A stretch of DNA of 64,000 nucleotides, from the NCBI RefSeq assembly GCF_031624395.1, contig NZ_JAMQON010000002.1:434001-498000 (forward strand), read 5' to 3'. This stretch comes from Halomicroarcula saliterrae. Its GTDB lineage: Archaea; Halobacteriota; Halobacteria; Halobacteriales; Haloarculaceae. The notes under the pieces are model-generated. The model searched no databases. It was given only the letters and a program-made list of their open reading frames with translations, and had not been told where the DNA came from. The translations under genes were made by a program, and so were the position numbers. Below are positions 39,278 to 50,635 of this stretch, piece by piece. The first letter of the stretch is position 1; every line of letters begins with the position of its first letter.

Positions 39278-40555
39278 ATGACCGTACTAGAGGACGCCGA
39301 GGCCGCGCTGGCCACGGGGCCGCTCTGTGATTCCTGTCTCGGCCGGCTGTTCGCCGAGCGGAGCTTCGGGCTGGCCAACGCCGAGCGGGGGGAGGCGCTG
39401 CGGGTCTCGCTGGCGCTGGAAGCCGACGAGCCCTTCGAGCCGAGCGAGGACTGCTGGGTGTGTGAGATGGAGAGCGACCGCGTCGACTGGTGGGCCGAGC
39501 AGGCCGCCACCGCCGTCAGGGGGTACGACTTCGACACCTATCAGGTCGGGACGAAGGTGCCGCCGCTGCTCGAAGAGAACGACGCCCTGCTGCGCGAGGA
39601 CGTGGGCTTCGACGAGGAGTCGGGCGAGGCGCTGAAGACCGAGCTGAACCGCGAGGTCGGCAAGCGCATCGGCGACCTGACCGGCGCCGAAGTGGAGTTT
39701 GGCCGCCCGGACGTGCAGTTCACGCTCGACCTGTCGACGGACGACATCGACGTCACCGTCAACTCCGCGTTCGTCTACGGCCGCTACCGCAAGCTCGAAC
39801 GGGACATCCCCCAGACGAAGTGGCCCTGCAACGACTGCAACGGCACCGGGCGCTGGCAGGGCCAGCCCTGTGACGGCTGTGACGGCTCCGGCTTCCGCTA
39901 CGACGAGTCCGTCGAACAGCTCTCGGTACCGGTCGTCGTCGACGCGATGGACGGGGAGTCGGGCACCTTCCACGGCGCCGGCCGCGAGGACGTGGACGCG
40001 CTGATGCTGGAGTCCGGTCGCCCCTTCGTCATCGAAGTGGACGAGCCCCGCGTTCGCGACGTGGACGTCGACCAGCTCGAAGCCGACGTCAACGAGTTCG
40101 CCGACGGCAAGGTCGAAGTCGAGGGGCTCCGGCTGGCGACCCACGACATGGTCGAGCGCGTCAAGGAACTGGACGCCTCGAAGACCTACCGGATGGACGT
40201 GGAGTTCAGCGAGCCGGTCACCGACGAGGCGCTGCAGGCGGCCCTCGACGAGCTCGAAGGGACGACCGTCCATCAGGACACGCCACAGCGTGTCTCCCAC
40301 CGGCGGGCGGACCTCACTCGCACCCGGGACGTCTACGCCGCCAGCGGCGACCTGGTCGACGACACCCACGCCGACATCCGCATCCACGGCGCGGGCGGCC
40401 TCTACGTGAAGGAGCTGATTTCCAGCGACGAGGGGCGCACGGAGCCGAGCCTCACCGGACTGCTGGGCGTCGACAGCGTCGTGACCGCGCTGGACGTTGT
40501 CGACGTACAGGGCGAGGACGAGCCGTTCGCCGACGAGGAGTTCTTCCGGGACTGA
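39278..40555 (+). CDS. pus10: tRNA pseudouridine(54/55) synthase Pus10
   Basis: A 425-residue enzyme. Two N-terminal C-x2-C pairs (CDSC at about 18 and CWVC at about 54) and the THUMP region are followed by a further zinc-like element CNDCNGTG ... CDGCDGSG (about 184-206) that is normal for archaeal Pus10. The catalytic domain shows HGAGREDVDALMLESGRPF (about 230-248) with the catalytic Asp and later IRIHGAGGLYVKELISSDEGRTEPSL (about 368-393). It makes pseudouridine 54 and 55 in the T-arm of tRNA in archaea. Independent gene, convergent with the CPBP protease ten bases away. Confidence 0.93.
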   Translation: MTVLEDAEAALATGPLCDSCLGRLFAERSFGLANAERGEALRVSLALEADEPFEPSEDCWVCEMESDRVDWWAEQAATAVRGYDFDTYQVGTKVPPLLEENDALLREDVGFDEESGEALKTELNREVGKRIGDLTGAEVEFGRPDVQFTLDLSTDDIDVTVNSAFVYGRYRKLERDIPQTKWPCNDCNGTGRWQGQPCDGCDGSGFRYDESVEQLSVPVVVDAMDGESGTFHGAGREDVDALMLESGRPFVIEVDEPRVRDVDVDQLEADVNEFADGKVEVEGLRLATHDMVERVKELDASKTYRMDVEFSEPVTDEALQAALDELEGTTVHQDTPQRVSHRRADLTRTRDVYAASGDLVDDTHADIRIHGAGGLYVKELISSDEGRTEPSLTGLLGVDSVVTALDVVDVQGEDEPFADEEFFRD

Positions 40556-40564
40556 CGGCGGTGG

Positions 40565-41326
40565 TCAGAGCAGCCCGAAAAACGGGAAGCCGACGTCGGC
40601 CCACGAGATGGCGTGGACCAACGCGACGACGAAGAGATTCCGCGTCCGCTGGTAGGTGAGGCAGAACGCCAGCCCCTGGCCGAACAGGACGAACAGATAC
40701 GCCGCGAGGAACTCCGGGCCGCGAGCGACGCCGTACAGCCCGTGCAAGAGCGAGAAGAGCGCGGCTCCGAGCACAACCTCGGAGGCTGGATGGAACGTGT
40801 CTCGCAGCTTCCCCTGGACGATACCCCTGACGAACTGTTCTTCGACGAGCGCGGGCACCAGGTACAGGCCGAGGAAGACGACGGGCCACAGCAGCGGCCA
40901 CCTGCCCAATCCGACGTCGGCACCAGTCCCGCTGAGCAGTTCGAGCGAGAGTCCGAGCAGCGGCAGTGCGAACTGGGCCGCCTCGGCCATGATATCGAGC
41001 CCGGCGGTCCCGAGGACAACCCACAGCGTATCGTGTCGGGTCGGCAGCCGTATCTGGACGTACTCCCATCGTTGCGTGGCGGCGAGATAGGCGACGATAA
41101 CAACGCCGAAGGCGACCTGGGACCCCTTGGCCCCCATGAGATACGCGATATCCGGGAACCGCGGTGCGACGATACCGTTCACCAGGGGTCGGTACACGGA
41201 GTAGACGAACAGTGAGAAGACCGACCCGAAGAAGATCAGGGCTATCGCGCCGCTGAGCGCGCCGACTCGGGTATCCGGACCGAAACGTTGCCGTACGCTG
41301 TGGAGCCAGTCTGAGCGGTGTGCCAT
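40565..41326 (-). CDS. CPBP-family intramembrane metalloprotease
   Basis: A 253-residue membrane protein with about seven hydrophobic segments. The family motifs are VEEQFVRG (residues about 161-168; E-E-x3-R) and FSLLHG (about 191-196), followed by a final H-A-I-S segment. These are the Glu/His ligands of CAAX-protease and bacteriocin-processing (CPBP) enzymes. The substrate is unknown. The start is the ATG at 41326. It is divergent from an unknown membrane protein across a spacer that holds two palindromes, so the two genes may share regulation. A second CPBP gene occurs at 49841-50635. Confidence 0.8.
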   Translation of the reverse strand: MAHRSDWLHSVRQRFGPDTRVGALSGAIALIFFGSVFSLFVYSVYRPLVNGIVAPRFPDIAYLMGAKGSQVAFGVVIVAYLAATQRWEYVQIRLPTRHDTLWVVLGTAGLDIMAEAAQFALPLLGLSLELLSGTGADVGLGRWPLLWPVVFLGLYLVPALVEEQFVRGIVQGKLRDTFHPASEVVLGAALFSLLHGLYGVARGPEFLAAYLFVLFGQGLAFCLTYQRTRNLFVVALVHAISWADVGFPFFGLL

Positions 41327-41385
41327 GTGTCCGTTACGACCGCTGACAGCGATATCAAGCCAAACGACAGTTAACGCCAATTTTT

Positions 41386-41405
41386 GGCCGTATACGGCCG
41401 TATAC
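41386..41405. promoter_or_regulatory. Perfect palindrome, putative operator 1
   Basis: GTATACGGCCGTATAC at 41390-41405 is a perfect 16-bp palindrome, and GGCCGTATACGGCC at 41386-41399 overlaps it as a second perfect palindrome. It lies between divergent genes, about 64 bases before the CPBP start. Confidence 0.6.
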
Positions 41406-41422
41406 CCTGGGATGGGGGGAAC

Positions 41423-41438
41423 GTGTACGCCCGTACAC
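41423..41438. promoter_or_regulatory. Near-perfect palindrome, putative operator 2
   Basis: GTGTACG-CC-CGTACAC, with 7-bp arms around two C residues. It has the same plan as operator 1 (G-T-R-T-A-C-G at each arm) and starts 33 bases further on, about three helical turns. It ends about 45 bases before the TATA-like box (41485-41494) of the plus-strand gene. Confidence 0.6.
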
Positions 41439-41484
41439 CCGGACACGTCGTCCGCCGAACGGCGCGCCGACGCGTCCAGAACAG

Positions 41485-41494
41485 TAAAATAAAA
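41485..41494 (+). promoter_or_regulatory. TATA box for the coiled-coil membrane protein gene
   Basis: TAAAATAAAA about 29 nt before the ATG at 41519, a strong AT box in GC-rich DNA. Confidence 0.55.
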
Positions 41495-41518
41495 TGCACA
41501 ACTCGTCTGGGCTAAGCC

Positions 41519-42193
41519 ATGTCGGATGCAGTGTCCTCGCTGCTCACGCGGACCCAGCGAGACCGGATTCGGTCGGGGTTCGCGGACGTCGAACGTGCGA
41601 AACGCCGGCGAGACCAGCGGAAGATTCGTACCCGTATCGCCGCCGGTATCGACGACTTCGAACTGCTGGTCGACTACCCAGACAGACAGTTAGAACTGGC
41701 CTTCGAGGAGCGGGCGGACGAGACGCTCGAAGCGCGGCTGGCCGACGCGTATCTGACCGTCGAGCGCATCCGAATCCTCCGGGGCATCGACCGCGACGCA
41801 CTGCGACGGCGGGCCAGCGCACGACGCGACGCCGTCGCGACCGACGAGACTCCTATGCTGGCGGCGGTCCCGGTTCGGACCACTGACGAGTGGCGCGACT
41901 ACGTGGCGGACGACCTCGCGGCGGAGTACCAACCAAGTCGGTGGAAGCGCCTCTCGGACGCCCTGCTGAAGATCGGGCTGGCGCTACTCGTCTTCGTGAG
42001 CGGACTCGCCGTCGTCGCCCCGGACTTCACGAACGGCTACGGGAGTCTCCCAGGTATCGTCGGGGCGAGCCTCTTGACGGTCGGGCTCGGCATCGTCGGC
42101 GTCCGCGGGCTGAAGTACGACCTGGTCCCAGCGACTCGGACGTTCGTCGCTGACCCGTCCGGCGCTCTCCGGACGGCGTGGGACCAGTTCTAG
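41519..42193 (+). CDS. Conserved hypothetical protein with C-terminal membrane helices
   Basis: A 224-residue protein I cannot name. The first 140 residues are strongly charged and helical (RTQRDRIRSGFADVERAKRRRDQRKIRTRI), with a segment LVDYPDRQLELAFEERADETLEARLADAYL, and may form a coiled coil. Two hydrophobic segments follow at about residues 150-165 and 175-195. The gene has its own strong TATA box and two palindromes in front of it. It ends 50 bases before rnhB. A function in signalling or envelope is possible but unsupported. Confidence 0.6.
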   Translation: MSDAVSSLLTRTQRDRIRSGFADVERAKRRRDQRKIRTRIAAGIDDFELLVDYPDRQLELAFEERADETLEARLADAYLTVERIRILRGIDRDALRRRASARRDAVATDETPMLAAVPVRTTDEWRDYVADDLAAEYQPSRWKRLSDALLKIGLALLVFVSGLAVVAPDFTNGYGSLPGIVGASLLTVGLGIVGVRGLKYDLVPATRTFVADPSGALRTAWDQF

Positions 42194-42243
42194 CCACGCG
42201 TCGGATCACAACCGCTTTACTCGACGCCGCGAACGCACCAGCT

Positions 42244-42879
42244 ATGCGATTCGGCGTCGACGAGGCCGGCAAAGGACCGGTGCTGGGGTCCATGTTCGCC
42301 GCCGCGGTGCGAGCGGCCCCCGAGGCCCTGCCAGACGGCGTCGGTGACTCGAAGGGTATCGCGCCCGACCGGCGTGAGCGGCTGGACGGAGCGATTCGCT
42401 CCGTCGCCGAGCGCGTCGCCGTCGCCGAGATTCCCGTCGCCCGCATCGACGATCCCGAGACGGACATGAACACGCTGACCGTCGCCGCCCACGCCGAGGC
42501 GCTGGCGGGCGTCGCCACCGACGGACTGCCGGGGACGGTGGACGCCGGCGACACCGACGCCGGACGCTTCGGCCGGCGGGTCGCCGACCGCGTCGACGCC
42601 ACCGTCGACCTCGACGCCGAGCACGGCGCCGACGAGACCGACCCGCTCGTGGGCGCGGCCTCCATCGTCGCGAAGGTGGCCCGCGACAGCCACGTCGAGA
42701 CGCTCGCCGAGACCCACGGCGCGGTCGGCTCGGGCTACCCGAGCGACCCGACGACACGCGCGTTTCTGGCCGGCTACGTCGAGCGCCACGGCGAGCTTCC
42801 CGACTGTGCCCGGACCTCGTGGTCGACCTGCGACGACGTGCTCGCCGCCGCCCAGCAGTCGACGCTGGGGGAGTTTTGA
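42244..42879 (+). CDS. rnhB: Ribonuclease HII
   Basis: A 211-residue enzyme that removes RNA from RNA/DNA hybrids. MRFGVDEAGKGPVLGSMFAAA contains the catalytic Asp-Glu pair (D6, E7). GDSKGI follows (about 33-38) with a third acidic site near VDLDAEHGADETDP, and ASIVAKVARD (about 140-149) and GSGYPSDPTTRAFL (about 161-174) complete the archaeal/eukaryotic RNase H2A-type core. The start at 42244 is fixed by the motif at the N-terminus. Single gene, upstream of the convergent secD. Confidence 0.92.
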   Translation: MRFGVDEAGKGPVLGSMFAAAVRAAPEALPDGVGDSKGIAPDRRERLDGAIRSVAERVAVAEIPVARIDDPETDMNTLTVAAHAEALAGVATDGLPGTVDAGDTDAGRFGRRVADRVDATVDLDAEHGADETDPLVGAASIVAKVARDSHVETLAETHGAVGSGYPSDPTTRAFLAGYVERHGELPDCARTSWSTCDDVLAAAQQSTLGEF

Positions 42880-45957: not shown

Positions 45958-47187
45958 ATGCGCTACAACTACAAGTATCGGCTTGACCCGCCGGAGGCCC
46001 TCACCGAGACGCTTCTGTACCACGTCGATACTTGTAGACAACTCTACAACCACGTCCTATACAAGCTCAACGAGGAAGACGATATTCCAAAACGTTACAA
46101 GATACAGGGGACACTTCCTGACCTCAAATCGTGGTGGGACGACCTCGGAGACGTGTACTCGAAAGTGTTGCAGATGGTCGTTAAGCGTGTCTACGACAAC
46201 CTCGCCACGCTCAAAGCGCAGAAAGAGAACGGGCGCGCTGTTGGAACGCTCAAGTGGAAACCTCCTCGGGAGTATCGGTCGCTCACCTACAATCAGTCCG
46301 GCTTCAAACTCAAGAATACGAGTGGTCGGCCTGTCCTGTGGTTGAGCAAAATCGGTGATATTCCGATTCAGCTTCACCGCGACATCCCAGAGAACGCGAC
46401 CATCAAACAAGTCACAGTCAAGCAAGAACCCACGGGCGAGTGGTTCGCCACGTTCGGTATCGACGTGGAAGAAGACGCTCCTGAGAAACCAGAGAACCCA
46501 GAACGAGTCGTCGGGATTGACGTTGGTATCTTGACGTACGCACACGATACTGATGGAACCGCTGTCGAGTCACCAGACTTCGCCGACGAGCGCGAGCGGT
46601 TAGAACGCTCTCAGCGTAGCCTCTCGCGGAAGGAACACGGCTCGAACAATTGGGAGAAACAGCGCAAGACGGTCGCCCGACGACACGCCGACCTGAAACG
46701 GAAGCGCAGGGACTTCCTCCACAAGTTGTCGAACTACTACGCCGCTGAGTACGACCTTGTAGCGGTCGAGGACTTGGACGCGAAGGGGCTGGTCGAACTC
46801 CCCGGTAACTCTCGGAACCGTGCCGGGGCCTCGTGGGGAATGTTCCTCCGAATGCTCGAATACAAGTGCGAACGGGAAGGGACGCACTTAGTTTCCGTAG
46901 ACCCCCGAGGAACCACCAAAGAGTGCGCTTCGTGCGGAACGGAAACGGACAAACCGCTATGGGTACGTGAACACTCGTGCCCGTCATGCGGGTTCAAGGC
47001 AGACAGAGATGCAAATGCGTCGTGGAACATTCTTTCTCGCGGTCTCGAAAAAGTAGGAGTGGGACACCCCGAATCAACGCCTGTGGAGACTGCGCTCCCT
47101 GCGGATACACCCGTATCTGCAAAGCGCGTCGTGGAGACAGGAAGCCCCTCCCTCAAGGAGCGAACCGCGTCAGCGGTGAGCGAGTAG
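45958..47187 (+). CDS. tnpB: TnpB, RNA-guided nuclease of IS200/IS605 type (OrfB)
   Basis: A 409-residue protein. It begins MRYNYKYRLDPPE, as many halophilic OrfB proteins do. The three RuvC acidic sites are intact: GIDVGILTYAHD (about 185-196, Asp), VAVEDLDAKGL (about 265-275, Glu) and KADRDANASWNIL (about 345-357, Asp). Between the last two a zinc ribbon CASCGTE ... CPSCG is complete. So the nuclease should be active as an RNA-guided DNA cutter. There is no transposase TnpA, so movement would need one elsewhere. Codon use is less GC-rich than its neighbours, which fits recent arrival. Confidence 0.9.
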   Translation: MRYNYKYRLDPPEALTETLLYHVDTCRQLYNHVLYKLNEEDDIPKRYKIQGTLPDLKSWWDDLGDVYSKVLQMVVKRVYDNLATLKAQKENGRAVGTLKWKPPREYRSLTYNQSGFKLKNTSGRPVLWLSKIGDIPIQLHRDIPENATIKQVTVKQEPTGEWFATFGIDVEEDAPEKPENPERVVGIDVGILTYAHDTDGTAVESPDFADERERLERSQRSLSRKEHGSNNWEKQRKTVARRHADLKRKRRDFLHKLSNYYAAEYDLVAVEDLDAKGLVELPGNSRNRAGASWGMFLRMLEYKCEREGTHLVSVDPRGTTKECASCGTETDKPLWVREHSCPSCGFKADRDANASWNILSRGLEKVGVGHPESTPVETALPADTPVSAKRVVETGSPSLKERTASAVSE

Positions 47188-49840: not shown

Positions 49841-50635
49841 ATGGCACTCTCACCGCCGTACGTCTCCGTCGCCGACGGCCGCACGATTACGACCAGCATC
49901 GTCCGGGCGCTGGCCGTCGTCCTGGCGGCGTTTTTCTTCGCCGCCATCTTCGGCCAGCTCGGCGCGGCGCTGCTGGGCGCCACCGCGCCGCTGGACGCGA
50001 GCACGACACCGGCGACGGTCTACGCGGCGGTGAACGCGATATCGTTCGTCGGGTTCCTGCTGGCGGCGGTCGCGTACATACAGGTCAGAGACGACCGGTC
50101 GCTCGTCTACTTCCGGACGCCCCGGCTGTCTGACTTCGGGTGGGCGCTGGTCGGTCTCGCGGGTATCCTCGCCGGCTCGCTCCTGATGGGCGTCGTCGTG
50201 CAGGCGCTCAGCGCGCTGGTCGAGACGCTGTTCGACGTCGGCGTCGAGACGGGCCAGAACAGCATCATCACGCAGGGCCGCCAGAACCCCGTCCTCTTTC
50301 TCTACATGGTCCCGGTGGCGCTCTTTTTCGTCGGTCCGGCCGAAGAGCTCGTCTTCCGCGGCGTCGTTCAGGGGCTCTTCCGGCGGGCCTTCGGCGTCGT
50401 CCCCGCCGTCGCGCTCGCGAGTCTCCTCTTCGGACTGGGCCACTATCTCGCGATCAGTTCCGGGAGCGCGTGGACGTACATCCTCGTCGCCAGCGCCCTC
50501 GGCGTCGTGCTCGGCGCGGTGTACGAGTACACCGAGACCATCGTCGTCCCCGCGCTGGCCCACGGGCTCTGGAACGCCGGGTTGTTCGTGGTGAACTACT
50601 ACGTCGCGACGACGGGCGCCACGCTACCGTCGTAA
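49841..50635 (+). CDS. CPBP-family intramembrane metalloprotease, second copy
   Basis: A 264-residue membrane protein with about eight hydrophobic segments. Motif 1 is PAEELVFRGVVQGL (about 166-179), the canonical E-E-x3-R; motif 2 is FGLGHYL (about 197-203); motif 3 is AHGLWNAGL (about 245-253, H-x3-N). All three metal-site motifs are intact, which makes it a more standard member than the copy at 40565. The ATG at 49841 is preferred to the GTG upstream. The substrate is unknown. Confidence 0.85.
   Translation: MALSPPYVSVADGRTITTSIVRALAVVLAAFFFAAIFGQLGAALLGATAPLDASTTPATVYAAVNAISFVGFLLAAVAYIQVRDDRSLVYFRTPRLSDFGWALVGLAGILAGSLLMGVVVQALSALVETLFDVGVETGQNSIITQGRQNPVLFLYMVPVALFFVGPAEELVFRGVVQGLFRRAFGVVPAVALASLLFGLGHYLAISSGSAWTYILVASALGVVLGAVYEYTETIVVPALAHGLWNAGLFVVNYYVATTGATLPS

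Follow-up and report, generated by a model that had tools for sequence, protein, structure and literature searches.

Conserved twin palindromes accompany COIL, an undescribed haloarchaeal membrane protein and candidate membrane-anchored regulator

Described membrane-bound regulators and the CPBP-COIL locus

The archaellum regulators ArnR and ArnR1 of Sulfolobus acidocaldarius are membrane-bound one-component proteins with an N-terminal, cytoplasmic HTH part and two C-terminal TM helices, and ArnR is an activator that needs both 15-bp inverted repeats of its target promoter for binding in vitro (PMC6396743). TTRs are defined by a predicted DNA-binding domain together with at least one TM region (PMC10269533), and in BcrR of Enterococcus faecalis, as in other TTRs, a membrane-bound one-component regulator is tied to an ABC exporter gene (PMC10269533, PMC3968067). 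Activation by OxsR (TrmB family) of Haloferax volcanii depends on a motif that lies upstream of BRE/TATA, between -50 and -74 (PMC9426492).

The locus described here lies in a 64,000-nucleotide stretch of Halomicroarcula saliterrae DNA (the window; positions 434,001-498,000 of its contig), in which two palindromes separate a CPBP protease gene from the divergent gene of a two-TM protein, COIL. From the CPBP start codon, the centre of operator 1 (GTATACGGCCGTATAC; 41390-41405, no strand) lies 71.5 bp upstream and that of operator 2 (GTGTACGCCCGTACAC; 41423-41438, no strand) 104.5 bp upstream; the distance from operator 2 to COIL, again upstream, is 88.5 bp. Both are perfect matches to GTRTACG-N2-CGTAYAC, their starts are 33 bp apart, and a nested palindrome (GGCCGTATACGGCC; 41386-41399) overlaps operator 1. 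The sequence-only reading had described the three palindromes, their coordinates, spacing and motif, and had placed them between divergent genes for a CPBP protease and an unknown membrane protein, and on all of these points it was exact. Of its term 'coiled-coil membrane protein' the membrane part held, and 'coiled-coil' is approximate only, since AlphaFold predicts helices throughout the N-domain and, after it, two long ones in the membrane.

The CPBP gene (40565-41326, minus strand) encodes a CPBP / Rce1-like intramembrane protease, the probable regulated effector, which matched PF02517 at 1.3e-13 (51.5 bits, relative to a curated cut-off of 22.4). The catalytic residues E162, E163, R167, H195 and H238 do not vary between this protein and its three closest homologues linked to COIL, and the EExxxR, FxxxH and distal H pattern is complete (E162, E163, R167, F191, H195 and H238 invariant in A2). 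A second, more distant CPBP gene without palindromes is located 8 kb away in the window (49898-50569; E 3.7e-21 to the A2 profile).

COIL (41519-42193, plus strand; 224 aa), the candidate DNA-binding regulator, combines a basic helical N-domain (approximately residues 1-110) with two C-terminal membrane helices. The family had no match in Pfam, NCBIfam or PDB sequence searches, and neither these nor Foldseek recognised a DNA-binding fold (HTH, RHH or other known type); a known-fold identity was also dropped after Foldseek and a PDB profile search gave nothing, as was a viral origin after no relative appeared in viral contigs. The family is undescribed and haloarchaeal, and its spread is patchy, with members in 7 of 60 relatives by single-sequence search and approximately 50 strong homologues in 391 Halobacteriales genomes by profile. 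The N-domain is conserved over about 110 residues with invariant L, T, Q and R positions, and two hydrophobic C-terminal segments were present in 40 of 47 family members. Models built from 9 sequences (pTM 0.52-0.59) gave the all-helical N-domain a pLDDT of ~85-95, followed by the two long C-terminal helices. Over the first 35 conserved residues the net charge averages +4.8 in the family and is +9 in the window protein, against a background mean of -3.2 for 35-residue pieces of acidic ORFs from the same loci, only 1.5% of which reach +4.8. Such a basic domain would suit nucleic-acid contact in a halophile, although it is no proof thereof. Weakly similar copies of the N-domain, marked by LLTxxQR, occur in hundreds of other haloarchaeal proteins (L028, L110-L113, L115, L114), one of which (L114:5163-6620) joins it to a C-terminal NucS-like nuclease domain.

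The closest working analogue of COIL is ArnR/ArnR1: both are archaeal, both have two TM helices at the C-terminus, and in both cases the target promoter, a proposed one for COIL, contains a pair of inverted-repeat boxes. In ArnR an HTH is recognised, HAMP and sensor domains are present and the consensus is TCGAC-N5-GTCGA, whereas COIL is shorter, haloarchaeal, divergent to membrane effectors and without a recognised HTH. Measured against the TTR definition, COIL has the TM region and lacks a recognised DNA-binding domain, so it can be said to work like a TTR and is not filed as one. BcrR likewise has its own inverted-repeat operators, with more membrane helices than COIL; unlike COIL it is bacterial and has a recognised HTH, and no sequence relation between COIL and BcrR or other TTRs was found. 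OxsR shares with COIL a haloarchaeal host and a comparable operator position, but is a soluble winged-helix protein with a CG-rich motif and many targets.

Linkage of the palindromes to COIL

Motif occurrence was assessed at 51 COIL loci (full or partial genes), which were chosen because they hold COIL, a bias partly offset by an unbiased motif scan of 391 genomes. The loose pattern GTRTA-N6-TAYAC, itself partly derived from these loci, was found at most 400 bp upstream of COIL or of CPBP/partner in 27 of the 51 as a perfect match and in 33 with one mismatch, compared with 0 and 12, respectively, of 1,454 control tiles from the same loci (Fisher 3e-52). By a leave-one-genome-out palindromic PWM, 41 of the 51 loci scored above the 99% control level, and approximately 10 lacked a convincing operator motif in this test.

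The genes neighbouring COIL, nearly always in divergent orientation, are CPBP in 18 loci, an ABC ATPase with an ABC-2 permease in ~26 and a PAP2 phosphatase in 5, and switches of partner type occur at several points of the COIL tree; as the partner varies, COIL is the sole gene common to the loci. Operator motifs occur with all partner types (CPBP, ABC, PAP2), while no operator was found upstream of the closest CPBP relatives without an adjacent COIL (L164-L167), and CPBP was accordingly rejected as the carrier of the motif. The motif thus goes with COIL. Two of these COIL-less relatives, L166 (well supported) and L164 (87/71), nest within the COIL-linked CPBPs on the tree, in keeping with COIL and its operators having been lost together. 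In convergent loci the operator sites are upstream of CPBP, not of COIL. The comparison shows that conserved, position-fixed putative operators follow COIL rather than its partner, and, judged by this conservation in sequence, the palindromes are real control sites that co-travel with the COIL family through haloarchaea. Two loci are damaged: at one the COIL frame is broken (G013:C3; L020:7329-8035) and the operators and CPBP look intact, and at the other (G027) COIL is truncated (L025:6831-7382), the partner is missing and a degenerate operator alone is left.

In the 4.2-Mb host genome no further copy of the strict motif GTRTACGNNCGTAYAC was found at up to one mismatch, nor any further GTRTACG-N2-CGTAYAC site at up to two mismatches within the 64-kb window. 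The loose motif had 5 other sites in the host genome, all A/T-centred and unlike the operators, relative to 3 for a reversed control. A global-regulator regulon across the host genome was rejected, since the strict motif is confined to the CPBP-COIL locus, as expected for an autoregulator. The sequence-only reading had named a motif found only here as grounds for abandoning its proposal; the motif is indeed found only here within the host genome, yet it recurs at homologous modules elsewhere, and uniqueness in the host is a poor refutation test because a self-regulating module has a one-locus regulon.

Across the 391 genomes the reversed pattern matched in 3 only, which puts a pair of perfect copies at 33-bp spacing well outside what chance would give. 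The motif derived from the window gave 31 sites, 15 of them within 2 kb of a COIL gene. The remaining 16 were rejected as additional COIL targets, as no COIL homologue was nearby and about half (~8) stood beside VapBC-type genes (PIN and VAPB_antitox confirmed for examples). In several haloarchaea, look-alike palindromes GTATACGNNCGTATAC directly precede such genes or lie at their start (PIN toxin, VAPB_antitox; L116:4308, L117:4183, L118:3968, L119:4438, L120:4322, L122:4265, L123:4633 and L026:4723) and are probable VapB autoregulatory operators. Haloarchaeal VapBC operators, whose binder is presumably VapB, resemble the palindromes at COIL loci, so that a binder cannot be read from the motif by itself. 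The window palindromes are flanked by CPBP, COIL, RNase HII and Pus10, with neither a PIN nor a VapB gene beside them.

Promoter geometry and candidate mechanisms

Relative to predicted start codons, the operator centre was located 70-74 bp upstream of the partner in 21 loci, the partners being mutually non-homologous CPBP, ABC and PAP2 genes. At CPBP loci a second operator follows 33 bp further upstream where the genes are divergent (window, L020, L066, L068, L069, L102) and 43-44 bp further upstream where they are convergent (L019, L021, L071, L072, L078), distances that are one helical turn apart and so keep the same DNA face; in ABC loci a second site is frequent ~70 bp ahead of the COIL gene. 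The aligned promoters run from operator (~-80 to -64) through a AAACGGTC-like element (~-49 to -42) and a TTTAAT-like TATA (~-32 to -26) to the start codon. In the window, the putative CPBP-promoter TATA (TTGATATCG; 41350-41358, minus strand) was placed by promoter alignment ~25-32 bp upstream of the ATG, and the putative COIL-promoter TATA (TAAAATAAAA; 41485-41494, plus strand) was read from the sequence 25-34 bp upstream of its ATG, positions that point to leaderless transcription. Co-inheritance, the fixed spacing of 33 (or 33+10) bp and the fixed start-codon distance give good support to the proposal that these are twin operators for a divergent pair, and come from comparisons that the sequence-only reading did not have.

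The AAACGGTC-like element between operator and TATA is conserved over CPBP, ABC and PAP2 promoters (window 41327-41400), and is possibly a TFB-specific BRE or a further regulator contact. In two convergent loci a small basic leader ORF (MSTIR...) is conserved after the twin operators and TATA (L019:6822 onward, L021:9558 downward). The TGA of this ORF shares bases with the GTG at which CPBP starts, a possible case of translational coupling.

The best explanation, which we hold to be probable, is that COIL is a membrane-anchored one-component regulator acting on its own twin operators and activating the divergent gene. The earlier proposal had left the regulator of the pair unnamed, and the neighbouring membrane protein is most likely that regulator. 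The basic helical N-domain would bind GTRTACG-N2-CGTAYAC as dimers, two dimers would sit on the same DNA face (33 bp apart, or one turn more), and the two C-terminal membrane helices would serve both as tether and for sensing some state of the membrane or envelope. COIL bound at about -72, upstream of BRE/TATA, would most likely activate the divergent gene, which encodes CPBP here and, in sister modules, an ABC-2 exporter or a PAP2 phosphatase (probably membrane-defence genes), and would probably control its own gene too. We infer binding, activation sign and sensed condition alike; activation, the favoured sign, is read solely from the operator position. Against binding by COIL stand its unrecognised fold, the ~10 loci lacking a convincing motif, the VapBC look-alikes, the convergent loci with sites upstream of CPBP and not of COIL, and an operator sequence that does not clearly covary with the N-domain.

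The same protein could instead work as a repressor, keeping CPBP or ABC genes and COIL itself off until a membrane signal releases the protein, in the manner of bacterial autoregulators; this is rather unlikely. Divergent autoregulated pairs are often repressor-controlled, and some ABC loci (L023, L073) have additional sites, -30 to -38 relative to the start of COIL, that would overlap its core promoter. The conserved site, however, spans the stretch 64-80 bp ahead of the partner gene and leaves the TATA at ~-30 free, and OxsR activation in Haloferax needs its motif at a comparable -50 to -74 (PMC9426492).

Rather unlikely, too, is that a separate soluble regulator encoded elsewhere (for example PadR-, GntR- or VapB-like) binds the operators, with COIL as a membrane sensor or cofactor modulating that binder. 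It would account for the lack of a recognisable DNA-binding fold in COIL and for the look-alike palindromes adjoining VapB-type antitoxin genes, and it is compatible with the weak covariation of operator and COIL N-domain sequences (Mantel r 0.07, p 0.13 overall; r ~0.19, p 0.03 and 0.01 within partner classes). The CPBP-, ABC- and PAP2-type loci nevertheless have no other gene in common, the strict motif has no other target in the host genome, and the module moved between genomic contexts together with its operators, although a soluble binder may have been co-acquired with it.

Regulated intramembrane proteolysis, in which CPBP cuts COIL and the freed N-domain acts at the operators, appears improbable. 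CPBP and COIL are tightly paired in 18 loci, and in L022 an M48 membrane protease gene follows COIL; the majority of COIL loci, however, pair it with an ABC exporter or PAP2 and contain no CPBP in the vicinity, for which reason cleavage by CPBP was disfavoured as a general mechanism, and the operator is upstream of CPBP just as of the other effectors, as though CPBP were an output. Within CPBP loci, CPBP is a possible COIL protease. That the palindromes are chance, structural or recombination elements without a regulatory role would fit the absence of the strict motif elsewhere in the host genome, but is scarcely credible given their recurrence at homologous loci, fixed spacing and fixed promoter position.

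If COIL does bind the operators, haloarchaea hold an undescribed family of membrane-anchored transcription regulators whose DNA-binding domain escapes current libraries and would now have a target motif. Transcription factors bound to the membrane, of which few are known in archaea, would gain another case. Haloarchaeal CPBP proteases and ABC-2 exporters would be placed in a regulatory setting, probably that of membrane or antimicrobial stress, and the fixed promoter geometry (operator centre at ~-72, TATA at ~-30) makes the proposed role of COIL directly testable. A broader reading, for which the chances seem about even, is that COIL represents a class of its own among membrane-tethered archaeal transcription factors, with an unrecognised helical DNA-binding domain, and forms a portable regulator and twin-operator cassette that plugs varied membrane effectors behind one promoter architecture across Halobacteriales, and that LLTxxQR N-domains are a widespread DNA-binding module.

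Insertion context of the module

The CPBP-operators-COIL module (approximate extent 40556-42215, no strand) occupies ~1.65 kb between Pus10 (39278-40555) and RNase HII (42244-42879). In many congeners Pus10 is followed directly by RNase HII, 52-111 bp apart, and in G013 and G020 the modules sit elsewhere in the genome, which suggests, from gene order, that the module may be gained or lost as a unit. Several congeners have other inserts of ~470-760 bp at the Pus10-RNase HII junction (L133, L137-L141, L143, L146), which looks like an insertion-tolerant spot. A TnpB/OrfB-like ORF (IS200/IS605-type, judged by eye) is located near the module at 45958-47187, and a TnpB-like ORF stands beside the CPBP gene of L020 (9866-11194).
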